Shown here: positions 340-27,850 of the stretch, in pieces
How the letters are laid out: every line of letters begins with the position of its first letter
Position numbering within the stretch: position 1 is the first letter of the stretch
Assembly: GCA_016870995.1 (NCBI GenBank)
Contig: VFZU01000054.1
Location: forward strand, 1-37,083
Length of the DNA: 37,083 nt
Origin: Acidobacteriota bacterium
GTDB taxonomy: Bacteria; Acidobacteriota; Terriglobia; Bryobacterales; Bryobacteraceae
Direction of reading: 5' to 3'
Translations under genes and position numbers: made by a program
Notes under the pieces: generated by a model
Database searches by the model: none
The model's input: the letters and a program-made list of their open reading frames with translations, nothing else
Told to the model about the DNA's origin: nothing

Positions 340-754
340 ATGAAAGAAATACGCTGACTGGCAAGTGAAAGTGTGCGGCTAGTTTTAGCGCGGACGCTTT
401 GCTGATTCCTCGCTGGCCGTTGCAGATCTGAGAAGCCGTGGCGCGTGAGATGCCTAGCACTCTGGCCAAGTCGGCCTGGCTCATTGAATGCTGATCCATC
501 ATGAATTGCAGGCTGCTCAGTGGGTCTGACTCGTAGAGTGCCGGGTTCTGCTGCTTGTCGTACGCGGTAAGCACTGGGAGCATCAGGCTGGCGAGTTCCT
601 GTTCTTCGGTTGTGGCGATCGGCGAGCGGTGAATCGACTCGATGATTGCTGCCCAGCGGTCAAAGTCCTCGTCGGAGGTGATTGGTCGTGGAACAAGCTT
701 CCCGAGCAGCTCGACATAGCGGTCGGTGTTGAGGGTCAGGCCCATTGCATCCAT
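338..754 (-). CDS. higA: HigA-type antitoxin, XRE-family helix-turn-helix protein
   Basis: A 138-residue protein. The C-terminal part (about 83-130) is an XRE-type helix-turn-helix with 'SQADLARVLGISRATASQ' as the HTH core. The N-terminal half (about 1-75) is a helical region, as in HigA-like antitoxins that bind a HigB toxin there. In this family the protein neutralises the RNase toxin and represses its own promoter. It follows higB on the same strand; its ATG at 754 overlaps the higB end by 19 nt (a second in-frame ATG at 745 would cut this to 10). Toxin-first order is the hallmark of higBA loci. The likely operator is the pair of 23-bp direct repeats at 1041-1086. Confidence 0.85.
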   Translation of the reverse strand: MDAMGLTLNTDRYVELLGKLVPRPITSDEDFDRWAAIIESIHRSPIATTEEQELASLMLPVLTAYDKQQNPALYESDPLSSLQFMMDQHSMSQADLARVLGISRATASQICNGQRGISKASALKLAAHFHLPVSVFLS

Positions 755-1029
755 TCCTTTCGATCACATTCGGCGTGCGATAGCAGCGCCTTGACGTAAA
801 ACACATGTGCCGGCCAGTAGACCGTGACGATCAGGCGATAACTGTTGCCCCGCAGGTTGAAGATCAGCACTTGGCCAACCTGATCGACGGAAGGAAAGGT
901 TTCGCCGAGCTCCTGGAGGGTGTCCCAGTTCCGTCGCGTCGCTTTGTGGAACCATTGCATCGCTGCTTCGCCACAGTCCGGATGAGACTGGATCAGCTTG
1001 GCCAGTCCTCGGTTGCTGATCACGTTCAC
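736..1029 (-). CDS. higB: HigB-family mRNA interferase toxin
   Basis: A small RelE-superfamily toxin of the HigB type. In known members it cleaves mRNA at the ribosome. Family features visible are 'FPSVDQVGQVLIFNLRGN', then 'YRLIVTVYW' and 'VKALLSHAECDRKEW', the conserved beta-sheet core and C-terminal tail. I place the start at GTG 1029, giving 97 residues beginning M-N-V-I-S-N, because the family normally starts a few residues before 'VIS'. An in-frame ATG at 1056 would add nine residues ('MFAFCYYLV') and would run into the upstream direct repeats. The 3' end overlaps higA by 19 nt. Confidence 0.83.
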   Translation of the reverse strand: MNVISNRGLAKLIQSHPDCGEAAMQWFHKATRRNWDTLQELGETFPSVDQVGQVLIFNLRGNSYRLIVTVYWPAHVFYVKALLSHAECDRKEWMQWA

Positions 1030-1040
1030 AACCAGATAGT

Positions 1041-1086
1041 AGCAAAATGCGAACATTCATGAAAGCAAAATGCAAACATTCTTGAC
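1041..1086 (-). promoter_or_regulatory. Two tandem 23-bp repeats, likely HigA operator
   Basis: Bases 1041-1063 and 1064-1086 are back-to-back direct repeats matching at 20 of 23 positions; each contains AGCAAAATGC and AACATTC. They lie immediately upstream of higB. A possible -10 box TACTAT reads on the minus strand at 1041-1036, with only a weak -35. Transcription would then start within a few bases of GTG 1029, so the message might be leaderless. The operator role is inferred from position and from known HigA autoregulation. Confidence 0.5.
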
Positions 1087-1146
1087 CTACTCGCTCTCCG
1101 CCGATCTGCTCCGCATTCAGTCTTTGTTGGCGTCCCCCATTGTCAG

Positions 1147-1345
1147 CCTTGGGCGTGATCACAAAACACAAACTCAGGCCGGCAACTCCAACGGACCGCT
1201 TCTTGATGGGCTTGGCCAGATTCATGCGCCTAAACAGGATCCACGCAGCGGCAGGCTTTCCCGATCCCTCTCCTCTCGGCGGTATCCTCTGGTTGAACTC
1301 CCCGACACCACCATCACCACCCTCCTCAAGGGCAGCCAGCGATAG
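1147..1345 (+). pseudogene. Decayed copy of the TetR-like C-terminal region
   Basis: Bases 1244-1345 match bases 1-169 at about 90 percent outside one deletion. The 67 bp corresponding to 60-126 are missing, which shifts the reading frame. Before the deletion the frame reads 'RIHAAAGFPDPSPLGGILW'; after it the TTITTLLKG tail and TAG stop are in another frame. Coding-like sequence extends left to about 1147, beyond what can be compared because the first copy is cut by the window edge. There is no start or HTH, so this is a remnant. Confidence 0.6.
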
Positions 1346-1356
1346 TCTGCATCGAA

Positions 1357-1411
1357 GTCAGACCTCTCGGACACCCAAACCTGCGAGCCGCCAGAATCGC
1401 AAAACTGAGCT
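1357..1411 (+). repeat. Copy of the region upstream of hicA
   Basis: These 55 bases align without gaps to 3659-3713, the segment just before the hicA start, with about 10 mismatches. Shared cores are AAACCTGCGAGCCG and AAAACTGAGCT. No hicA sequence follows here; bases 1412-1513 show nothing recognisable. It is either a leftover from an earlier hicAB insertion or a copy of a small dispersed repeat. Confidence 0.55.
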
Positions 1412-1513
1412 GAAGCGAAGTAGCTTCCCGGGATCCTGGTCATCGTCGAGCAGCCCGGATTTAGAGCTTTAGCACTACTACAGGCGAGCCTTAGTTCGGT
1501 CGATCTCTTTACT

Positions 1514-2452
1514 ATGTGGGTCGTACTTTCTATCCTGGGTGTCCTGTCTTTGCTTGCAATCACGCTCTTCATCGTCTACCAGGAAAAATGGGTGCAATTC
1601 AAGATCTCTTGGCACATGTCCTTCAACCGTACGGACCGGGCTTTGCCCTTGGTGAAAGCGCAGTTCGAACGGCTCCAGCGAAAGAAGGGAGCTGGTCACC
1701 TGGATACGGAAGTGGCTCGCTACGTGTTGGGTGAGATTGAATTCGAGAACGGTCTTCCCAAGCAAGGGAAACAGCGAGTGACCGAAGCGGCAGCATGGTT
1801 TGCCACCCAACCTGACCAGCGCGATGCCATCTTCGCGGTGCATCTGATGAACCTCGCGCTCGCGCAGCGAATGGCGGGCGACCTGGAGGGGGCGGCGGCG
1901 AACTTGAGGCGTACGCTTGCGGTGCAGCGAATGGTGTCGAAGGTGAATGACGGGCAGTTCGGCCAGACACTCTCGAATCTGGGCGTGGTGCTGGAAGAGG
2001 GTCAACGCCCGCACGAGGCCCTGGAGGTATATGAAGAAGCGCTGTCGATCCGCCAGGCTGCGCACGGCGAGCAATCGATCGAAGTGGCTCGCACTCGGGT
2101 GAACCAAGCCTGTGCTTTGATCGCCTTGGAGAACTGGGGCGAGGCGGAGAGATGCCTGCGCGCTGCGCTGCCGGTGCTCCAGTCCTACCCCGGGATGCAA
2201 GATCTGGGCCAAGCCTACGACACCTACGGCGAGCTTCTCGAAAAGCAAAAGCGAGACGCGGAGGCCGAACCGATGAGGGAAGCATCGATTCAGTCGTTGC
2301 GGCAGGCATTGGGCGACAAGCATCCGGAAGTGGCCAAGCAGTTCGAACGCAAAGCCGCTCTGCTAGGCCGCTTGGGGCACAACATGGAGCGCGACTTCCA
2401 CGCCCGCAAGGCGGCGGAGATTCGGGAGGCACTGAAATGCTCGTTGGCTTGA
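1514..2452 (+). CDS. Membrane-anchored tetratricopeptide-repeat protein
   Basis: A 312-residue protein with one N-terminal membrane helix (about residues 3-21) followed by a charged segment and at least four TPR-like helical pairs, for example around 'LMNLALAQRMAGDLEGAAAN' and 'LSNLGVVLEEGQRPHEALEV'. TPR arrays are protein-binding scaffolds; no enzymatic motif is visible, so the partner and role are unknown. The C-terminal 'GDKHPEVA' segment resembles kinesin-light-chain-type TPRs. The start is the ATG directly before the membrane helix. The 3' end overlaps the next gene (ATG 2437) by 16 nt, and that gene is a shortened paralogue. Confidence 0.8.
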   Translation: MWVVLSILGVLSLLAITLFIVYQEKWVQFKISWHMSFNRTDRALPLVKAQFERLQRKKGAGHLDTEVARYVLGEIEFENGLPKQGKQRVTEAAAWFATQPDQRDAIFAVHLMNLALAQRMAGDLEGAAANLRRTLAVQRMVSKVNDGQFGQTLSNLGVVLEEGQRPHEALEVYEEALSIRQAAHGEQSIEVARTRVNQACALIALENWGEAERCLRAALPVLQSYPGMQDLGQAYDTYGELLEKQKRDAEAEPMREASIQSLRQALGDKHPEVAKQFERKAALLGRLGHNMERDFHARKAAEIREALKCSLA

Positions 2453-2760
2453 TGTGGGTCTTTGCGGCTTTGGCCGCAACCTTGGTGTTCCTGTTCTGGC
2501 GCGCCCGGCAGAGGATGAGGCAGTGGGGTCAACTGATGAAGACAGCGCAAGAGGCACAGTCACGAGGTGACTGGAAGGGTGCCGAGCATTGTCTGGCGCA
2601 GGCCTGCGATTTCGCGGAATCGAACAAGGGCGCCATGATGAACAGGGTCGCGTTGATTTCGAAGCAACAGAAGGCGGAGACCCTCTACCGTGCGGGCGAG
2701 CTGGACCGCGCTGCCGATCTGAGCTTCGAATTGATCCAGGTCTACAAGGGCCCTGGTTGA
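2437..2760 (+). CDS. TPR paralogue, N-terminal part (ends at in-frame TGA)
   Basis: This 107-residue ORF begins with a membrane helix ('LMWVFAALAATLVFLFW') and a TPR-like pair, as in the preceding gene, then stops at TGA 2758-2760. The next ORF (2779-3339) continues in the same frame with more TPR units. Together they would give about 299 residues, close to the 312 of the upstream paralogue. The simplest reading is one gene split by a nonsense codon. Two coupled genes, or a sequencing error, are alternatives. The start overlaps the upstream gene by 16 nt, suggesting translational coupling. Confidence 0.65.
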   Translation: MLVGLMWVFAALAATLVFLFWRARQRMRQWGQLMKTAQEAQSRGDWKGAEHCLAQACDFAESNKGAMMNRVALISKQQKAETLYRAGELDRAADLSFELIQVYKGPG

Positions 2761-2778
2761 GGGCCGGGACCTCTCGCC

Positions 2779-3339
2779 GTGAGCGAGATGAACATCTGGT
2801 TGGCACGGGTGCTGATTGCCCGGCAGGAGTATGGCGAGGCGGCGGCGCTGCTGCGGCGCTCCCTGGCTGAACTCGAGGGAGTTCTGGGCACGACGGACGT
2901 GAATCTGGTTCCAATTCTGCATTTGCTGGGCCGTTGCTTGTGGAGAACGGGTGATGTCGGCGGAGCGCAGCTGACTTTGCAGCGGGCCGGCAACTTAACC
3001 ACCCAGGGACTGGCGGACGAAATCAAGCCAGAATCGGAGTTCCGTCCCTCAACGCAGAACGAGCAGGACTTCTACCAGGGAGACGTCGCAGGCGCGGCGC
3101 TAGCGATGAAGATTCAATTGGAGTTTGAGGCGGCCCACAGCCCGTCACCAGATCCAGACGATCAGCCCGGATGGGAAACTCTCGGAGAGATCGAGGAGGC
3201 GGCGGGGAATGTGGCCGCCGCACGAGATGCATACGAGAAGGCGCTAGAGGCCTGGAAGTCGAAATTGGCGCCGACACATCCGCGCACGAATTGGGCGCGC
3301 GAACGTCTCGCGGCATTGGAAAGTTGCCGGGTGGCTTAG
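2779..3339 (+). CDS. TPR paralogue, C-terminal part
   Basis: A soluble TPR segment of 186 residues from GTG 2779, in the same frame as 2437-2760 and separated from its TGA by only six codons. Repeat units appear at 'IWLARVLIARQEYGEAAALL' and 'LLGRCLWRTGDVGGAQLTL'. The end, 'APTHPRTNWARERLAALE', parallels the C-terminus of the 1514-2452 protein. It has no membrane helix of its own and no convincing ribosome-binding site close to GTG 2779 (a GAGGG lies about 15 nt upstream). It is probably the distal half of a broken gene. Confidence 0.55.
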   Translation: MSEMNIWLARVLIARQEYGEAAALLRRSLAELEGVLGTTDVNLVPILHLLGRCLWRTGDVGGAQLTLQRAGNLTTQGLADEIKPESEFRPSTQNEQDFYQGDVAGAALAMKIQLEFEAAHSPSPDPDDQPGWETLGEIEEAAGNVAAARDAYEKALEAWKSKLAPTHPRTNWARERLAALESCRVA

Positions 3340-3369
3340 TCACGCGCTGCGCAACTGGCGGCCGCGCTC

Positions 3370-3438
3370 GACGGCAAGCTGCTTCCCCCACCCACAAGTG
3401 GCCGGGATGACTTCACTCGCATGCTGACCGTCGCGTAA
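3370..3438 (+). pseudogene. Remnant of a hicB 3' end
   Basis: Bases 3370-3446 match 4082-4158, the end of the intact hicB plus its first downstream bases, with about six mismatches and no gaps. The reading frame ends in 'FTRMLTVA' and TAA at 3436-3438, as in hicB. The rest of hicB and all of hicA are missing upstream. The homology runs on to a shared CCGTTC, where the sequence switches to the STGP-gene remnant. Confidence 0.7.
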
Positions 3439-3439
3439 C

Positions 3440-3643
3440 CCGTTCCAGCAAACCCAATACGACGCTCTCGACCGCTTCACAAACGAACCTACGAGCGAAC
3501 TCTGGCTTCACCAAATGGAGCGAAATCAGAAGCTAGGCGTCATGCAAGACAACCACCCCCAGGCTCCCTTGTTTGACGCCGCAGAACTCTTCGCCGCCAC
3601 CATCGCCGCCACCATCGCTGCCCACCTCAAGAGCAACCAGTGA
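3440..3643 (+). pseudogene. Remnant of an STGP-family gene with two internal deletions
   Basis: An in-frame 67-codon fragment without a start, ending at TGA 3641-3643. It corresponds to the intact gene at 4302-5003 but lacks two blocks. The first junction falls at CCGTTC, present in the intact locus both after hicB (4152) and inside the gene (4449). The second falls at CGACGCCCTC, present twice in the intact gene (4469 and 4589), removing 120 bp in frame. After 'MQD' the tail ('LFAATIAATIAAHLKSNQ') is unlike the intact gene, so the parent was a paralogue, not an exact copy. Confidence 0.65.
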
Positions 3644-3658
3644 TCGTCATGATCGAAC

Positions 3659-3713
3659 GTCAGACACCTCGGCTAATCAAACCTGCGAGCCGCTATCATC
3701 GGAAAACTGAGCT
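3659..3713 (+). promoter_or_regulatory. hicA upstream region, duplicated at 1357-1411
   Basis: This segment ends three bases before the hicA start and has a diverged partner at 1357-1411. It contains a possible -10 box TATCAT (3694-3699) without a clear -35, and a purine-rich GGAAAACTGAG just before the ATG that may serve as ribosome-binding site. The promoter role is inferred from position. Confidence 0.35.
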
Positions 3714-3716
3714 TGC

Positions 3717-3914
3717 ATGCCTCGCAAAATCCGCGAATTGATTGCAGTTTTGGAGAGCCACGGGTTCGTGGATCGCGGAGGCAAGGGCAGCTATCGAAAC
3801 TTTACACATCCTCGAGTCAACCGCCCGGTCACGCTCTCCGGCCGGCTTGGTCAGGACGCTAAAAAGTATCAGGAAAAAGCGGTCGAAGCCGCGATCTCGG
3901 AGGCCAAGCAATGA
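3717..3914 (+). CDS. hicA: HicA-family toxin with altered active-site residue
   Basis: A 65-residue HicA-like protein with the double-stranded-RNA-binding fold used by HicA mRNA interferases. Visible family features are 'MPRKIRELI', 'GFVDRGGKGS', 'NFTHP' and 'PVTLSGRLG'. HicA toxins normally have a catalytic histidine right after Gly-Ser. Here that position is Tyr26 (TAT), one transition from a histidine codon, so the toxin may be weak or dead. The start is the only ATG that fits. Its end overlaps hicB by 4 nt (ATGA), the usual coupled arrangement. Confidence 0.85.
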   Translation: MPRKIRELIAVLESHGFVDRGGKGSYRNFTHPRVNRPVTLSGRLGQDAKKYQEKAVEAAISEAKQ

Positions 3915-4150
3915 ACGACAGTGCCCGCTACGTGAAAATCGTCGAGTGGTCCGATCAGGACCAATGCTTCGTCGGCAGTTGTCCAGGACTCATCTTTGGC
4001 GGTTGCCATGGCGATGACGAACGTGTTGTTTTTGAAGAGCTCTGTTCCGCGGTCGAAGCGGCCATAGAGCTTTATAAGCGGGACGGCAAGCCGCTTCCCC
4101 CACCCACTAGTGGCCGCGACTACGTCACTCGCATGCTGACCGTCGCGTAA
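3911..4150 (+). CDS. hicB: HicB-family antitoxin
   Basis: A 79-residue HicB-like antitoxin with a partial RNase-H-like fold: 'YVKIVEWSDQDQCFVGSCPG' then 'FGGCHGDD' and 'AIELYKRDGKPLPPPT'. HicB binds and neutralises HicA. Larger HicB proteins carry a C-terminal DNA-binding domain; this one ends after a short 'RMLTVA' tail, so autoregulation by HicB alone is not evident. It overlaps hicA by 4 nt. Its 3' end also occurs as a remnant at 3370-3438. Bases 4151-4252 downstream hold no gene; an A/T palindrome ATTTTTTCGAAAAAT lies there. Confidence 0.88.
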   Translation: MNDSARYVKIVEWSDQDQCFVGSCPGLIFGGCHGDDERVVFEELCSAVEAAIELYKRDGKPLPPPTSGRDYVTRMLTVA

Positions 4151-10489: not shown

Positions 10490-11148
10490 CCCCGAGCTGC
10501 GACTTCATATCCAGCAAGGGCGATGCATAAACATACCTTTATGAGAGTGCGCTTCCCGATTGACCGACAGGATGCTTGAGCAAGGCTTCCACGCAGCCAG
10601 CGACAGCTCCTTCGCCCTCTTTATCGTCGCCTTCCGCCTTAGCAGCAAAGCCACCTATTCCCGAGCTGCGCCTTCACGTACGAAGTCAGCCATCGCAACG
10701 ACGACCTCGGCATCGGCGCCTTCCATCGCGACCGCAAGCCTACCTGGCTCCGAGCATCGTCCCGATCCCCTCGACCGCTTCATCTCTAGCCAGGGAGATG
10801 GATGTACGAACCATGAGGAGAGAGCGCTCCCCGATTGACAAACAGGATGCTTGAGCAAGGCTTCCATGCAATCAGCCATAACTCCTTCGCCCTCTGTGTC
10901 GTCGCCTTCCACCGCGACGGTACGGCTACTTGGCTCCGAGGTTCGTCCTGATCATCTCGGCGGCCTCATCTCCGGCCAGGGCGGCGCCTACACGTGCCAT
11001 CCCAAGAGTGCTGCTCGCTTCTCTGCCGGCCCCGATGGAAGCACAAGGTGCATGGTGGGGTGCTTCCATGCCGTCAGCTGCCGCTACGTCACCCAATACA
11101 TCCGCCGCAAGGCTACTTTGCCCCGAGCTTCGTCCCGATCACCTCGCC
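10300..11148 (+). repeat. Tandem decayed copies of the ubiE 3' end
   Basis: The segment from codon 165 of ubiE through its stop and a short tail (copy A, 10300-10501) recurs as diverged copies at about 10502-10670 (B), 10671-10757 (C, 3' part only), 10758-10950 (D) and 10951-11148 (E). Landmarks that recur are GCTCGAGCAAGGCTTC-like, CATCGTCGCC-like and CCGAGC(T/A)(G/T)CG-like blocks. B and D share changes absent from A (for example CCCGATTGAC and CAGGATGCTTGAGCAAGG), so B/D descend from a common altered copy. No copy keeps an open frame. The ORFs that can be drawn here are not genes. Copy E runs into the 3' end of the convergent OmpA-like gene. Confidence 0.75.
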
Positions 11149-21819: not shown

Positions 21820-22839
21820 GTGAGCGAACGAGGCATTGTGGGCGGCGAACCGCTGGATGAAGACCGACTTTTCGAAGCATCGCTGCGCCCGCGCAGCCTT
21901 GCGGATTTCACCGGACAAGCCAAGTTGAAGGAGAACCTTTCGATCGCCATCGAAGCTGCGCGGATGCGCGGTGAAGCGATGGACCATGTGCTTCTCTACG
22001 GGCCGCCGGGGCTGGGGAAGACCACGCTCGCGACACTGATCGCCAATGAGCTCGGGTCGTCTTTTGAGCAGACTTCGGCTCCTGTGCTGCAGAAGAAGCT
22101 GGATCTGACGGGGCTGCTTTCGAATATTCGGGCCAAGCAGGTGTTCTTTATCGATGAGATTCACAGGCTCGCGCCGGACGTCGAAGAAATGCTGTATTCG
22201 GCGCTCGAAGATTTTCGCGTGGACATTCTTGTTGGCGCGGGGCCTGGCGCGAGGACGCACTCGCTGCCGGTGCCGAAGTTCACGGCGGTGGGGGCCACTA
22301 CAAGGCTGGGAAACATCAGCGCTCCGTTGCGGGGAAGATTCGGCCTTGTGCTGAGGCTGGATGTGTATGGGCCTGAGGAGTTATCGAACATCGTGCGCCG
22401 CTCGGCGAAGATCCTTGGGTTGACGATGGATGCGGCCGCATCGGAGGAGATTGCACGGCGGAGCCGGGGCACTCCGCGGATCGCGAATCGACTGTTGCGC
22501 CGTGTTCGCGATTACGCTCAGGTGAAGGCCAAGGGCGATATGTCGAAGCAGGTGGCGGTGGATGCGCTGGATCTGCTGGAAGTGGATCCGCTGGGGCTCG
22601 ACGAAGTGGACCGGCGGATCATGTTGTGCATCCTTGAAAAGTTCGATGGCGGGCCGGTGGGCCTGAATACGCTGTCGAGTGCAGCCGACGAAGAGGCCGG
22701 CACCATCGAGGAAGTGTACGAGCCCTATTTGATCCAACAGGGTTTCATTGACCGGACGCCACGCGGCCGGATTGCGACCGAGCGTGCCTTTGACTACTTC
22801 AAAGTGCCGCGGCGTCGATCTCAGAATGTTCTGTTTTAA
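21820..22839 (+). CDS. ruvB: Holliday junction helicase motor RuvB
   Basis: A 339-residue AAA+ ATPase. Walker A is GPPGLGKTT (61-69); Walker B/DEIHR lies in 'VFFIDEIHRLAP'; sensor-type 'GATTRLGNISAPLRGRFG' and the arginine-rich 'RRSRGTPRIANRLLRRVRDY' follow. The C-terminal winged helix has 'FIDRTPRGRIAT'. RuvB drives branch migration with RuvA. The start is GTG 21820, 11 bp after ruvA. The phytase gene begins 6 bp downstream and may be cotranscribed although functionally unrelated. Confidence 0.96.
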   Translation: MSERGIVGGEPLDEDRLFEASLRPRSLADFTGQAKLKENLSIAIEAARMRGEAMDHVLLYGPPGLGKTTLATLIANELGSSFEQTSAPVLQKKLDLTGLLSNIRAKQVFFIDEIHRLAPDVEEMLYSALEDFRVDILVGAGPGARTHSLPVPKFTAVGATTRLGNISAPLRGRFGLVLRLDVYGPEELSNIVRRSAKILGLTMDAAASEEIARRSRGTPRIANRLLRRVRDYAQVKAKGDMSKQVAVDALDLLEVDPLGLDEVDRRIMLCILEKFDGGPVGLNTLSSAADEEAGTIEEVYEPYLIQQGFIDRTPRGRIATERAFDYFKVPRRRSQNVLF

Positions 22840-22845
22840 CTCACG

Positions 22846-23829
22846 ATGCTTACAGCCTTATTGATGCTCACACTGGCGCAGGTAGATGTTGCACCCTTGC
22901 GCGAAACCAAAAGTGAACCGGTGCAGACGGACGACCCGTCGATCTGGGTTCATCCCAAGAGGCCGGCGGAAAGTTTGATTATCGGCACGGTGAAGATGGC
23001 CGCGCCGGAGGGGGCTATCGCCGTATACAAGCTGGATGGCCAACCGTTGATGCGGATCCCGAATGTGGACCGGCCGAACAATGTGGATGTCGCCTACGGC
23101 TTGAAGGTTGGTGGACGCCGAATCGATATCGCGGTGGCAACCGAGCGCAACAAGAACGCGTTGCGGATTTTTGAAATCGAGCCGGGCAAAGGTATCAAAG
23201 ATTTGGCAACGATCCCTGTGTTTGAAGCTCCGATGGGTGTGGTGTTGCACAAGGAACCGAAGACGGGTAAGATCTTCGCGATTGTGAGCCGCAAGCAAGG
23301 ACCGTCGGGGAGCTACCTTTGGCAGTACGAGTTGAAGGACGACGGGAAGGGCGGAGTGAGCGGGGTGAAGGTGCGGGAGTTTGGCGCTTTCTCGGGCTCA
23401 AAGGAAATCGAAGCCGTTGCGGTTGACGATGAACTGGGGTTTGTTTACTACTCCGACGAAGGGGCAGGGATTCGCAAGTATTCGACGGACCCGGCGAACT
23501 CGAAGGAGTTGGCGTTGTTCGCGACCGAGGGATGGCAGGGGGACCGCGAAGGCCTTGCGCTTTACAAGACCAAGGGGAATGGCGGATACCTCATTGCTAC
23601 CGATCAGCAGACGCCGAATTCGGTGTATCACGTGTATTCGCGGGCGGACAACAAACCACTCGGCAGCTTCCGGGTGGGGGCGGCGGCGACGGATGGAATC
23701 GATGTGACGTCGAAGAGCCTTGGGGCGGAGCTGCCGCGGGGGCTGTTTGTCGCGATGAACGACAGCCGGAGGAACTTCATTCTGGTGGACTGGCGTCAGA
23801 TTGAGAAGGCGTTGAAGCTGGGGCAGTAG
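22846..23829 (+). CDS. Beta-propeller phytase
   Basis: A 327-residue exported protein with signal peptide ('MLTALLMLTLAQV') and six-bladed beta-propeller phytase motifs: 'DDPSIWVHP', 'NNVDVAYGLKVGG', 'EIEAVAVDDELGFVYYSDE', 'GDREGLALY' and 'IATDQQ'. The acidic residues in these motifs bind the calcium ions needed for phytate hydrolysis in this family. It probably releases phosphate from phytate outside the cytoplasm. The last 13 codons (23791-23829) have a second copy at 26089-26127, with differences only at third positions, and an IS6-family end begins right after the stop codon. Confidence 0.88.
   Translation: MLTALLMLTLAQVDVAPLRETKSEPVQTDDPSIWVHPKRPAESLIIGTVKMAAPEGAIAVYKLDGQPLMRIPNVDRPNNVDVAYGLKVGGRRIDIAVATERNKNALRIFEIEPGKGIKDLATIPVFEAPMGVVLHKEPKTGKIFAIVSRKQGPSGSYLWQYELKDDGKGGVSGVKVREFGAFSGSKEIEAVAVDDELGFVYYSDEGAGIRKYSTDPANSKELALFATEGWQGDREGLALYKTKGNGGYLIATDQQTPNSVYHVYSRADNKPLGSFRVGAAATDGIDVTSKSLGAELPRGLFVAMNDSRRNFILVDWRQIEKALKLGQ
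23791..23829 (+). repeat. Left copy of duplicated phytase 3' end
   Basis: The last 13 codons of the phytase gene, from the Trp codon through TAG, recur at 26089-26127. Both encode 'WRQIEKALKLGQ' and a stop. Of 39 bases five differ, all at third codon positions (CAG/CAA, TTG/CTG, CTG/CTA, GGG/GGC, TAG/TAA). The two copies bracket about 2.26 kb containing the IS6 remnant and the TIR locus. Confidence 0.8.
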
Positions 23830-23830
23830 A

Positions 23831-23974
23831 GGGTTTTGTTGCAAAGAGCGGGAACTGATGACCAAGCGTGGCATTGAAGTCGATCAGTTTACGATCTGGA
23901 CGTGTGGCCGACGGTTTGCTTCAGAGCTCAACCCGGAATTGCGACCGCATCTGAATCCTGCCAGCCCTTCGTGA
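23831..23974 (+). mobile_element. IS6-family insertion sequence remnant
   Basis: GGGTTTTGTTGCAAAGAG at 23831-23848 is nearly identical to the terminal inverted repeat of IS6-family elements (GGTTCTGTTGCAAAG). Ten bases further a frame reads 'ELMTKRGIEVDQFTIW', then 'RRFASELNPELRP' and a stop at 23972-23974. This matches the segment before the first catalytic Asp of IS6 transposases (RGxxVDHxTIxRW...YAPEL). The N-terminal transposase part between the end and this motif is deleted, as is the catalytic domain. No right-hand inverted repeat was found. Bases 23975-24083 show nothing further. Confidence 0.7.
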
Positions 23975-24083
23975 TCTAGATGCGGCCAGCAGCTTACAGC
24001 GTCATCGGTGCAGAAGCCCGGGCCGAGTAATTCCGAGTAGCCAACGATTCGAGAGCTGCTGGGCGTAGCTAAACACTGTGGCG

Positions 24084-24296
24084 TTACTCAGGAGCTATCG
24101 CCCGGATCACAGATTCAAAGGGTCGGCGTCCGAACGATTTTCGCTCGATCCCGCTTGTGGGAGAGGTGCCCAAGAGCCGGGCTGAATCAATCGCTCCGCT
24201 CGCGATGCCGCAAATCGCTCGGCAGTTCTGACCCTTCCCCAAGCAGCGCTTCGACGCTTGCAGAATCGCGGTGTCCTCTTTCCGAAATTTGCTCAA
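24084..24296 (-). CDS. Small hypothetical ORF downstream of the TIR locus
   Basis: A 70-residue ORF whose ATG overlaps the stop of the 24293-24619 ORF (ATGA), suggesting translational coupling. It contains 'CRAICGIASGAIDSARLLGT' and 'IERKSFGRRPFESVIRAI'; I recognise no family. Codon use looks protein-like. It may be the last gene of the TIR module or a leftover fragment of a larger gene. Confidence 0.4.
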   Translation of the reverse strand: MSKFRKEDTAILQASKRCLGKGQNCRAICGIASGAIDSARLLGTSPTSGIERKSFGRRPFESVIRAIAPE

Positions 24297-24619
24297 AATG
24301 ATTCATACCATTCGTCCAACTTCGCTTTGAGTGCCCTCAGTTCTTCCTGATCGACGTCTGCCCCCGCAGACGCGTGTCGCAGGAGTGTGTCCACTGTCGC
24401 GCGCAAGGATGGCTGTTGGGGAAGCAACACCTGGCCTGCTACCCAGATTCGGTTCCGCTCTCGACCAAGCTCTCGGATAGGATCTCGCGCAAGGCTGAGT
24501 TTTCCCTTCAACCCATCCATTACCTGCACCAAACTGCCAAGCGCGAAGGCGTTTTCAACTCTGCCGCGATGTTTTTCACGGAACGATCGCGAAAGGAACT
24601 GTGAGAGAGCCCCGGCCAA
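24293..24619 (-). CDS. Hypothetical ORF overlapping the 3' end of the TIR gene
   Basis: A 108-residue frame starting at TTG 24619 that overlaps the TIR gene by 100 bp in another frame. Its sequence is helical and protein-like ('FALGSLVQVMDGLKGKLSLA', 'LPQQPSLRATVDTLLRHASA', 'EELRALKAKLDEWYESF'). It lacks a good ribosome-binding site. The overlap is long for a normal gene pair, so it may instead be the true C-terminus of the TIR protein, reached through a frameshift near 24600-24620. The function is unknown. Confidence 0.5.
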   Translation of the reverse strand: MAGALSQFLSRSFREKHRGRVENAFALGSLVQVMDGLKGKLSLARDPIRELGRERNRIWVAGQVLLPQQPSLRATVDTLLRHASAGADVDQEELRALKAKLDEWYESF

Positions 24620-25749
24620 ATGCGGACGAGGTTCTCGTGCTGTGTGGATTCTACACCCAGGCGATCAAGCCAGCTCACCAGTTTCCTCTTCGTCTTCTCG
24701 ATTGCTTGCTCGGTGTCATTGGCACCAGTTTCGACCGATTGCTCCATGACGATGAGTAGGTACTGGAGCTTGCCAATACGATAGGCGGCGCCCTCCATCT
24801 CCCGGACGTGTAGTTCCTCGATCGCGGGCACAGTGTCAGGTGGCGCCGAGGCAGCGGCCGGGAGCTCATCCGGGTTTGACGGCGAAGTCGACGCACGGCT
24901 CTCAGCGACGACCTCGTCAATGCACTTCTGAAATGCGGCAACTCGGTCCGGTTTCCTTCCCAGGGCAGCCGCTACCTCTTCGATGAATTGATGCAGTTGT
25001 CCGGGGCTGTCACAGCTGAGGGCATTGACCGCAGAAAGTGGCCCCTCTAGAAGTTTGGCATCCCCACCACAAGCCAGAAGTGGTAACAGCGGCTTTCCGG
25101 ATCCCCAGCGAGCACCGAGTTCAAAAAGAACATATTTGGATTCTGTGCCGCGGGGTGTGATGACAGCGATGAAGACATTGGACGAGAGTGTCTCTTGCCT
25201 GAGGTGTTCGGCGACCGACGCCCCTACGGGCAGTCGATACCCGTCCACGCTGGTGCATCGAATTGCCTCGCTCGACAGGTTTAGTGCAGATCTGATGAGC
25301 GTGATCAAGCGTTTCACTACAGGTTGGTCATGACTGCTGTGGCTGATAAAAACGTCCATGTTCACATTCTCTTCGAAATCGGCCGAGCCCTCCGAGTTCA
25401 GTTGGAGTGGTTCCGCAATGAAGACGCGAGTCTTGTCGTGACCTTCTAGAAAGACCTCTCGTTCGCGCGGCCAAGGCATGTCGAAGTCCCCCCGGCCGCG
25501 TAAGCGCGCCTTCTCCTCGTATTCTCGACAGCGATTTTCAAGCCCGGCAAGGACCACGCTCGCGGGCGCATCCGTATGGCGGATTTGAAGGAAGCCAGTG
25601 GCTTCGAAGGGTATTGTCACGCCGCCAATGAAAACATCTTTAATACCAGGGATCGCTGCTATGAAATCGGCCTTGATTTCCGCCTCATCGAGATCGAGTT
25701 GATAGCGAGCCTCGGCTTCTTCTTTACCTCTTGCGATGTGATCCGGCAT
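24520..25749 (-). CDS. TIR-domain protein with uncharacterised N-terminal region
   Basis: A 409-residue protein. Residues 131-265 form a TIR domain: 'MDVFISHSSHDQPVVKRLI' at the first strand, 'VFIAVITPRGTESKYVLFE' and 'LGARWGSGKPLLPLL'. Glu210 occupies the position of the catalytic glutamate of NAD-cleaving bacterial TIRs. Residues 1-130, with 'KADFIAAIPGIKDVFIGGV' and a charged stretch, match nothing I know; residues 290-409 are helical. There is no membrane helix. TIR enzymes serve as NADase effectors in anti-phage systems; that role is inferred here. ATG 25749 is the first usable start, with an in-frame stop about 40 bases upstream. It sits in an island between duplicated phytase ends. Confidence 0.75.
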   Translation of the reverse strand: MPDHIARGKEEAEARYQLDLDEAEIKADFIAAIPGIKDVFIGGVTIPFEATGFLQIRHTDAPASVVLAGLENRCREYEEKARLRGRGDFDMPWPREREVFLEGHDKTRVFIAEPLQLNSEGSADFEENVNMDVFISHSSHDQPVVKRLITLIRSALNLSSEAIRCTSVDGYRLPVGASVAEHLRQETLSSNVFIAVITPRGTESKYVLFELGARWGSGKPLLPLLACGGDAKLLEGPLSAVNALSCDSPGQLHQFIEEVAAALGRKPDRVAAFQKCIDEVVAESRASTSPSNPDELPAAASAPPDTVPAIEELHVREMEGAAYRIGKLQYLLIVMEQSVETGANDTEQAIEKTKRKLVSWLDRLGVESTQHENLVRIWPGLSHSSFRDRSVKNIAAELKTPSRLAVWCR

Positions 25750-25989
25750 CCGGTCGGAAGTCTCTTCGTGGAGCCAGAAAACAGCCTAACACTTAAACGA
25801 ATCTCGTCGCTCATGATGCATTCGACGGAGTCAACTTCACAAAAGTCGCGTAGTTTAGAGCTATCCCAACTGGGTGACGCGCGATTCGTCAGCTATGGAA
25901 TCGCCGACCATCCATCCGGGAGTCAGCGGGCCATAGCTAAAACAATGGCGTTTTTCGCTAACATCTGAAGCGATGTGTAGAATGCCTAA

Positions 25990-26074
25990 GGTGAGTCCTG
26001 GGTGGCCCAAACTACCTTCGGGTAGGCTCCCATTCCTTGGTTATCTTGCTCATGGTGAGTCCTGAGGTTGGGCC
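25990..26074. other. Structured non-coding segment with UUCG hairpin
   Basis: CTACC-TTCG-GGTAG at 26012-26025 is a perfect hairpin with the very stable UUCG loop. It lies inside a wider inverted repeat, GGCCCAA 26004-26010 with TTGGGCC 26068-26074. GGTGAGTCCTG occurs twice (25990-26000 and 26054-26064). The rest of 25750-26088 has no gene that I can support. The segment lies upstream of the TIR gene and could be a small RNA, a terminator or part of the island end. Confidence 0.4.
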
Positions 26075-26088
26075 GTAGCGGAGACTGA

Positions 26089-26127
26089 TGGCGTCAAATT
26101 GAGAAGGCGCTGAAGCTAGGCCAGTAA
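26089..26127 (+). repeat. Right copy of duplicated phytase 3' end
   Basis: Partner of 23791-23829: thirteen codons encoding the phytase C-terminus and TAA, with only synonymous differences. No phytase sequence can be seen upstream beyond a possible few bases. The copy overlaps the last codons and TAG (26116-26118) of the convergent dps gene. This suggests that phytase and dps were once convergent, overlapping neighbours at this spot. Confidence 0.8.
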
Positions 26128-26580
26128 GGAGCGGAGCATCCAGGCGGTCTTCTCGTGGCTTTCGAGCAGGCCGGTGAGGAAGTCGCTGTTGCCGGCGTCG
26201 CCGTGGTCGGCGGCGCTTTGCAGGTCTCCGCGCAGAGAACGGATGATGGATTCGTGATCGGCTAGTAGATTGGCGATCATGGTGCGGGCGTCGATCTTGC
26301 CGCCGGCATCTTCGGCGAGGCGGGCGTCCTGCGGGAATTCCGCGAAGCTGCCGGGGGAGAGGACGCCTAGTGCGCGGATGCGCTCGGCGACTTCGTCGAT
26401 CGTTTCGTCGATTTCTTCATATTGGCCCTCAAACATCTTGTGAAGGTCGTGGAAGTGCATGCCTTCGACGTTCCAGTGATACTTGCGGGTTTTCGTGTAG
26501 AGAATGTATTCGTCGGCGAGCGTCCGCCGGAGGAGATCCGCTACACCAGCGCGTTGGGAGTCGGTCAATCCAATGTTCAT
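26116..26580 (-). CDS. dps: Dps-family ferritin-like DNA protection protein
   Basis: A 154-residue Dps/miniferritin. It has 'KYHWNVEGMHFHDLHKMFEG' and 'IDETIDEVAERIRALG', which carry the inter-subunit ferroxidase His, Asp and Glu residues, and 'LLADHESIIRSLRGDL'. Dps dodecamers oxidise and store iron with peroxide and shield DNA under stress. I place the start at ATG 26580 rather than the upstream one at 26622, because the shorter form has the usual N-terminus and leaves a 40-bp divergent gap to the radical-SAM gene. The stop codon lies inside the right phytase-end repeat. Confidence 0.92.
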   Translation of the reverse strand: MNIGLTDSQRAGVADLLRRTLADEYILYTKTRKYHWNVEGMHFHDLHKMFEGQYEEIDETIDEVAERIRALGVLSPGSFAEFPQDARLAEDAGGKIDARTMIANLLADHESIIRSLRGDLQSAADHGDAGNSDFLTGLLESHEKTAWMLRSLLA

Positions 26581-26620
26581 GCTTCTCGGATGCAATCGCC
26601 CGGCTGATAGACTCGTCAAC

Positions 26621-27850
26621 ATGGATCCCGATCAGTTTCATATTCTGGGTCAGGCGTCGGGGCCTGGCATTCCATTGCATTCCGAGCGGTCGGGGACCGC
26701 TCCGCGCATTTCTTCGATCTTGATCAAGCCCGCGTCGGCGATTTGTAATCTCGATTGCGGCTACTGCTTTTATCTCGATCGCGATCTGGACCCTTACACC
26801 GATTTACCGCAACGGCGCATGTCGGATGAGACGCTGGACCGGCTTGTCGATTCTTATTTGTTCTACTCGTACCCAAATTCGACGTTCGCATTTCAGGGTG
26901 GGGAGCCGACGCTGGCGGGGCTGCCGTTTTTCGAGAAGCTGGTGAGGTTGCAGGAGACCAAAGGCCGCAACGGCCAGTCGGTTTCGAACGCGCTACAGAC
27001 GAATGGCGTGCTGCTCGATGACAATTGGGGCCAGTTGTTTCATCAGTACAACTTTCTGATCGGGTTGTCGCTGGATGGACCAGAAGGGATCAACGACAAG
27101 TACCGCTACAACAAGGAAGGCCACGGTACGCATAAGTGGGTGATACGGGGCATGGAGGCGCTGCAGCGGAACAAGGTGGATTTCAACATCCTCTGCGTGG
27201 TGAGCCAGGCGAACGTCGATAAGCCGCGCGAGCTCTACAACTACTACAAGAGCCTTGGGGTAGATAACATCCAGTATATTCCACTGGCCGAGTTTGGCGG
27301 GCCTTCGAAGGGCCTGCCCTTCAGCATCACGGCGGAGCAGTACGGACGCTTTCTGGTGGAGACCTTCGATCTATGGTGGCCGGAGCGGCGCAAGATGCGC
27401 ATCCGGTTTTTTGACAACATGGCGGAGGCGATCGCAGGGCAGAAGCCGGGATCGTGCACGATGCACGAGACGTGCGACAGCTATGCGGTGGTTGAGTACA
27501 ACGGCGATGTTTTTCCTTGTGACTTCTTTGTCGAGTCCGGTTGGAAGTTGGGGAACATTATGCTCGATTCGTGGCCGGAGATTGCGCGACGCAACCGCAG
27601 GTATCGCTTTGCCGAGAAGAAGACGCTGGCGCATCCGGAGTGCCAGGTTTGCGAGTATCAATCGATCTGTCACGGCGGGTGCCCGAAGTTCCGGCATGGG
27701 CCGAATGGGAAGTTTGAAGATCTTGATTACTTCTGCCAGTCGTACAAGATGATCTTTGCGCGCGCGGTGGGGCCGTTGCAGGACGAATTGACCAAGCTGA
27801 TGGGTAAGCAGGTGACAATGCCTGGGCGGCATTCGATCAGCCCGTACTAA
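26621..27850 (+). CDS. Radical SAM/SPASM anaerobic sulfatase-maturase-like enzyme
   Basis: A 409-residue radical SAM protein. The [4Fe-4S] motif is Cys42, Cys46, Cys49 in 'AICNLDCGYCFYLDRDLDP'. 'AFQGGEPTLAGLPFF' and 'LQTNGVLLDDNW' follow. The C-terminal SPASM region has the cysteine series 'GSCTMHETCDSYAVVEYNG', 'CQVCEYQSICHGGCPKFR' and a late Cys. This is the anSME pattern, which converts a Cys or Ser of type I sulfatases to formylglycine. No sulfatase is in the window, so the substrate is elsewhere. ATG 26621 is divergent from dps; the 3' end overlaps the convergent PHP gene by 4 nt. Confidence 0.88.
   Translation: MDPDQFHILGQASGPGIPLHSERSGTAPRISSILIKPASAICNLDCGYCFYLDRDLDPYTDLPQRRMSDETLDRLVDSYLFYSYPNSTFAFQGGEPTLAGLPFFEKLVRLQETKGRNGQSVSNALQTNGVLLDDNWGQLFHQYNFLIGLSLDGPEGINDKYRYNKEGHGTHKWVIRGMEALQRNKVDFNILCVVSQANVDKPRELYNYYKSLGVDNIQYIPLAEFGGPSKGLPFSITAEQYGRFLVETFDLWWPERRKMRIRFFDNMAEAIAGQKPGSCTMHETCDSYAVVEYNGDVFPCDFFVESGWKLGNIMLDSWPEIARRNRRYRFAEKKTLAHPECQVCEYQSICHGGCPKFRHGPNGKFEDLDYFCQSYKMIFARAVGPLQDELTKLMGKQVTMPGRHSISPY

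Follow-up and report, generated by a model that had tools for sequence, protein, structure and literature searches.

Integrative elements that target the 3' end of a gene are a well-known kind of mobile DNA. In (pseudo-)compound transposons of the IS6 family, two IS6 copies surround the cargo and there is an 8-bp target duplication. Two further systems come close to the case reported here. Passages of PMC3031569, which refer to Nobusato 2000, describe restriction-modification genes that were inserted with a long target duplication. Homology-facilitated illegitimate recombination (HFIR), according to parts of PMC3240628, joins DNA through one homologous and one illegitimate end, and foreign DNA can come to lie beside a partial resident gene.

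The window analysed here is the whole stretch of 37,083 nucleotides, contig 54 among the 215 that make up a draft genome of 5.72 Mb. In it, the last 13 codons of a phytase gene (12 sense codons plus the stop) occur a second time at the end of a dps-like gene, and a segment with a TIR gene lies between the two copies (Table 1). The locus resembles the 3'-end-targeting elements in its geometry and in having direct-repeat ends that match a gene 3' end (39 bp, 34 of 39 positions identical), but differs in that neither an integrase nor another occupied site was seen. It shares an IS6-type end at the left junction with the IS6-family pseudo-compound transposons, from which it differs by its single decayed IS, with no second IS and no exact 8-bp duplication at the right. 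A defence-type gene without an integrase, a direct repeat of gene sequence and an empty site are also features of the restriction-modification insertions as those passages present them, but here the repeats differ by 13%, at synonymous sites only. With HFIR the locus has in common that foreign-looking DNA adjoins a partial copy of a resident gene, although here the product alone is seen, without donor or experiment. We consider the locus best read as the outcome of ordinary gene exchange and not as a new mobile element or integration system.

Table 1. Features of the phytase/dps locus (positions in the window)
Feature	Position	Strand	Evidence or remark
Phytase gene (beta-propeller type, intact), 6 nt downstream of ruvB	22846..23829	+	PF02333, E 1.1e-51
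Left copy of the 39-bp phytase end, within the intact gene	23791..23829	+	degenerate 39-mer search
Decayed remnant of IS6 type, with the left inverted repeat (15 bp, starting at 23832), two pieces of the transposase and internal deletions	23831..23996	+	
108-aa ORF over the end of the TIR gene, reality doubtful	24293..24619	-	no match in Pfam, PADLOC or PHROGs
TIR-domain protein, 409 aa, open frame	24520..25749	-	PF13676, E 1.4e-9
Non-coding repeat	25842..25957	.	83% over 120 columns to contig 106 of the same genome (G000)
Right copy: isolated final 13 codons, probably of another phytase allele, where phytase and dps ancestrally meet	26089..26127	+	39-mer search, relatives
dps-like (ferritin-like) gene, last 12 nt common to the right copy	26116..26622	-	PF00210, E 3.3e-31

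The two copies of the phytase 3' end

A degenerate 39-mer covering both copies was searched for with at most three mismatches. It matched twice in the window and not at all in 100 shuffles. The whole draft genome also held two matches, and the reversed control none. The two copies reported in the first-pass annotation are thus confirmed and, at this stringency, occur nowhere else in the genome. They are 87% identical, and none of the five differences alters an amino acid when read in the frame of phytase. The earlier statement that all five fall at third codon positions holds for four of them; the remaining one is a first-position change between two leucine codons (TTG/CTG). Had the right copy decayed neutrally after a duplication, five synonymous changes out of five would be expected with a probability of 0.013 when the dps constraint is taken into account and of 0.008 when it is not. 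As had been proposed, both copies were thus probably coding when the arrangement formed, with the caveat that five changes in 39 bp are a small sample.

The right copy does overlap the end of the dps-like gene (26116-26127), as first annotated, and contains a CTA codon that, on the other strand, reads as the stop of dps. CTG stands at this place in the left copy; it would destroy the dps stop, which fits a left copy that has been freed from dps. Dps-type NCBIfam models match the dps-like gene below their cut-offs.

The segment between the copies

The IS6-type end begins 2 bp past the phytase stop. The congener genome G129 contains a complete-looking element whose 276-aa ORF is an IS240-type (IS6-family) DDE transposase (PF13610, E 1.3e-48), and pieces of the remnant match three separate parts of it: a 17-nt end piece (94% identity) and the two transposase pieces (78% and 83%). 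The element end is GGTTGTGTTGCAAAG in G129, and its counterpart in the window from position 23832 is GGTTTTGTTGCAAAG. The IS6 remnant of the first-pass annotation is thus real and is an old insertion at the phytase end. With two internal deletions, it is more decayed than the 13 codons, so that the IS6/TIR segment looks older than the junction with the right copy. IS6-type similarity is confined to the remnant itself, without a second IS6 copy, and an exact 8-bp target duplication is absent (left CAGTAGAG, right-hand homologue CAGTAAGG).

The Pfam match in Table 1 bears out the TIR gene. Over its TIR part it also matches the PADLOC models spbK (E 3.6e-14) and ThsB (E 7.9e-7), and its GC3 of 0.607 is the lowest among the 14 genes measured (0.607-0.806). 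Its domain suggests that it may be an anti-phage gene. Relatives were found in seven other genomes of a phylum sample of 396, mostly over the TIR domain, and in no viral contig. It is doubtful whether the two small ORFs mentioned in the first-pass annotation, taken as 24293-24619 and 25576-25968, are real: each overlaps the ORF of the TIR protein, and the second, like the first, has no match in Pfam, PADLOC or PHROGs. The single NCBIfam match of the first is below cut-off (E 0.003).

The non-coding repeat is also present in another genus (G169, G220 and G078; 74-88% over 34-70 nt) and is possibly a small non-autonomous element. Its copy on contig 106 (L002 1264-1469) has inverted-repeat arms. 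No integrase or site-specific recombinase was found with Pfam and PHROGs among the eight ORFs of at least 60 aa within 23830-26088, in agreement with the first reading of the sequence. Rfam, tRNA, promoter and terminator scans gave no matches.

The phytase/dps junction in related genomes

The genus sample comprised eight genomes, including that of the window. Phytase follows ruvB (assigned by Pfam) directly in G104, G129, G158 and G167 as well. In G104, phytase and dps are convergent with overlapping stops and no island lies between them, which is the empty site with a single phytase end that the first-pass annotation had suggested looking for. G146 has ruvB, an internally deleted phytase in which codon 46 (approximately) is joined to the last 18 codons, and a dps gene that overlaps the phytase 3' end (L126 6614-6805); it is an independent case of a phytase 3' end surviving beside dps. 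G055 has ruvB followed by dps without phytase, and G129 has phytase followed by a radical-SAM gene without dps. Phytase is present in G158 and G167, where the downstream sequence examined lacks dps, and neither gene was found in G175. These varied states indicate that the junction is plastic and that the right copy lies where a phytase end belongs. The convergent, slightly overlapping arrangement of phytase and dps is the ancestral one, in the order ruvB-phytase-dps, and the earlier suggestion that the two genes were once adjacent is borne out by G104 and G146. The gene order of the window is also found in a Bryobacter sp. MAG (L046).

None of the seven congeners yielded the TIR gene, although G146 is only 88% and G158 only 79% complete. 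The DNA of 23780-26130 gave matches over short stretches in 7 of 236 other family genomes; three lie in the IS6-type part, three in the repeat and one in 39 bp of the TIR region. A donor that combines the left allele with the island was not found among the genomes, and phytase identity to the nearest congeners is 64-70%. By identity, phytase is nearest to G158 and G167 and dps to G146, while ruvA is nearest to these three alike, and phytase is thus not conspicuous as an import. The gene identities gave no support for an import of phytase as a whole: G146, G158 and G167 are favoured by ruvA, dps and the propeller gene as well as by phytase, rsmE is undecided, and only ruvB is opposite. The ruvB gene (21820-22839) is 87% identical to those of G104, G129 and G055 and 76% to those of G146, G158 and G167, the reverse of the grouping of ruvA and phytase; an exchange of ruvB is possible.

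Copies of gene ends elsewhere in the genome

In a scan of 1.24 Mb of the genome, copies of the 3' end at most 3 kb downstream were found for 11 of 1039 ORFs, and copies of the 5' end upstream for two. The comparison sets gave four of each in 1929 ORFs; the 3'-end copies were distributed as 0/377 (G055), 1/127 (other congeners), 0/308 (family phytase loci) and 3/1117 (wider phytase loci), with at least seven loci present in both of the last two sets. The excess of 3'-end copies over the other sets has a Fisher P of 0.003. Four of the 11 lie in the window, whose selection was itself based on a feature of this kind; when they are left out the excess is modest, with P about 0.045 for an assumed rather than counted denominator of 1007. 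At least one of the 11 (contig 4, 1813-3457) adjoins a tandem paralogue. A stricter scan gave ten 3'-end and no 5'-end copies for the 1039 ORFs, and none of either for 327 ORFs of G055. A further 400 kb of the same genome contained two 3'-end copies in 349 ORFs and no 5'-end copy.

The pyruvate phosphate dikinase gene on contig 18 (PF01326, PF02896; L224 about 693-3990) has a 437-bp copy of its 3' end with 95.7% identity, within 0.7 kb of the contig end. Its changes, 15 synonymous against 4 non-synonymous, are a sign of two functional alleles, as at the phytase end. Other 3'-end copies belong to a 156-aa ORF without a Pfam family (contig 6), an esterase-type gene (contig 35) and a phosphomethylpyrimidine kinase gene (contig 38). 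The synonymous to non-synonymous counts on contigs 6, 35 and 38 and at xseA were 9:12, 3:4, 11:10, 5:9 and 6:10, with two menG rows left out as being out of register, and these ratios fit simple decay after duplication. Two convergent junctions are repetitive. In the window, degenerate tandem copies of both gene ends, spaced 169-275, lie at 10490-11112 between menG/ubiE (PF01209) and an OmpA-family gene (PF00691). The xseA/guaB junction (L264 4240-4691; G000 contig 7, 24240-24691) is a tandem repeat with a period of 175 and 2.6 copies. With a period of at least 90, Tandem Repeats Finder reported one array in this genome (xseA/guaB; menG was missed) and 1, 0, 1 and 2 in the other sets.

It is conceivable that in this lineage the 3' ends of genes are recurrently copied into the space downstream of them, chiefly where two genes converge and far more often than 5' ends, and that this process produces tandem junction arrays such as menG/ompA-like and xseA/guaB and, at phytase/dps, a landing place for foreign genes; we regard this as unlikely. 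A lineage-wide process of 3'-end copying is not established. The data only hint at it, and it is a lead.

Origin of the arrangement

Our preferred explanation, to which we give somewhat less than an even chance, is that the locus is a recombination scar of two functional phytase alleles from close relatives. Starting from the order ruvB-phytase-dps, an IS6-type element would have landed 2 bp after the phytase stop in one lineage. The segment with the TIR gene lies beyond that element and would have been acquired in that lineage too. An allele with the already decayed IS6/TIR segment would then have entered a strain with the plain phytase-dps order. On the left, the exchange would have proceeded through homologous recombination in or before phytase; on the right, the incoming DNA would have been joined to the final 13 codons of the resident gene with no long stretch of homology, either by HFIR or by allelic exchange followed by a later deletion. 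Most of the resident phytase would have been replaced and only these codons left.

The main rival is a tandem phytase paralogue beside dps: the IS6/TIR segment would have entered between the two genes, and a deletion would have spared only the last 13 codons of the second. This accounts for two coding copies, and G146 demonstrates that most of a phytase can be deleted at this site while its 3' end stays beside dps, where overlap with the end of dps would explain the survival of the last codons under the import and the paralogue models alike. The downstream remnant of the esterase-type gene (PF00756) on contig 35 likewise consists of two pieces that are apart in the intact copy, as after a deletion. 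Tandem phytases do exist, in 3 of 79 loci of a wider search, all from Bacteroidota, but there was none in 45 family loci, 40 of which had been fetched mainly downstream so that an upstream partner could escape. The model also requires that 12 residues stayed the same in two paralogues whose DNA there had diverged by 13%. This deletion model, one of two in the first-pass annotation, comes closer than the other, and we nevertheless hold it to be rather unlikely. A duplication in place is unlikelier still. Here a long target duplication at insertion, or a tandem duplication of the phytase/dps junction, would have been followed by drift of the copies. The passages cited above describe target duplications, long and of variable length, next to restriction-modification genes; a relative with an empty single-copy site exists in G104, and the menG/ompA-like and xseA/guaB junctions hold degenerate tandem copies. 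Against this stand the probability of about 0.01 for five synonymous changes under decay of the right copy and the lack of a dps-end copy in 23830-26088, which a junction duplication would leave.

The other model of the first-pass annotation, a site-specific element that attaches at the 3' end of phytase and carries a new end for the gene, predicts the geometry seen, with the gene restored at the left, the old end at the right and the cargo between. To the missing recombinase are added a target that is poorly conserved, as the phytase C-terminus varies even inside the genus, and a phytase gene present in only 52 of 200 family genomes, the window's own counted. The last 60 nt of phytase were compared with 645-9000 bp of downstream sequence at 45 of the 53 other family matches, the deleted gene of G146 among them. 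The window scored 56 and the 45 other loci 16-32. For comparison, 20 control pieces were taken from the same gene in each case, and the highest score among them was 21-36; the end exceeded its control in four loci (24 v 23, 32 v 28, 23 v 21 and 32 v 27), none of them near 56. The phytase end therefore does not recur downstream in these loci, the different cargo at the same site that the first-pass annotation had named as possible support was not seen there, and an integration hotspot is not supported; we consider this model the least probable of all. Nearly as improbable is an assembly chimera of two strains. It would be in keeping with a draft of many contigs and with a nearest named congener record that is itself a MAG, but for the segment beside the right copy a search of phytase and of the rest of the genome gave, within its sensitivity, no match, and there is thus no shared word that could have joined the two parts.

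Between an incoming allele and a resident paralogue we favour the former, narrowly. The import of an allele gives the scar in one step, but a tandem paralogue with insertion and deletion needs more. Synonymous-only changes, set against the decayed IS6 piece and the 3'-end copies elsewhere that fit decay, suggest that two working alleles met late.

Implications

If 3'-end copying at convergent junctions were indeed lineage-wide, it would be a new source of genome plasticity. At the phytase/dps locus itself, the leftover of 13 codons can be read as a recombination scar, in which the overlap with dps would have kept the fragment and the purely synonymous differences would show that two working alleles have met.
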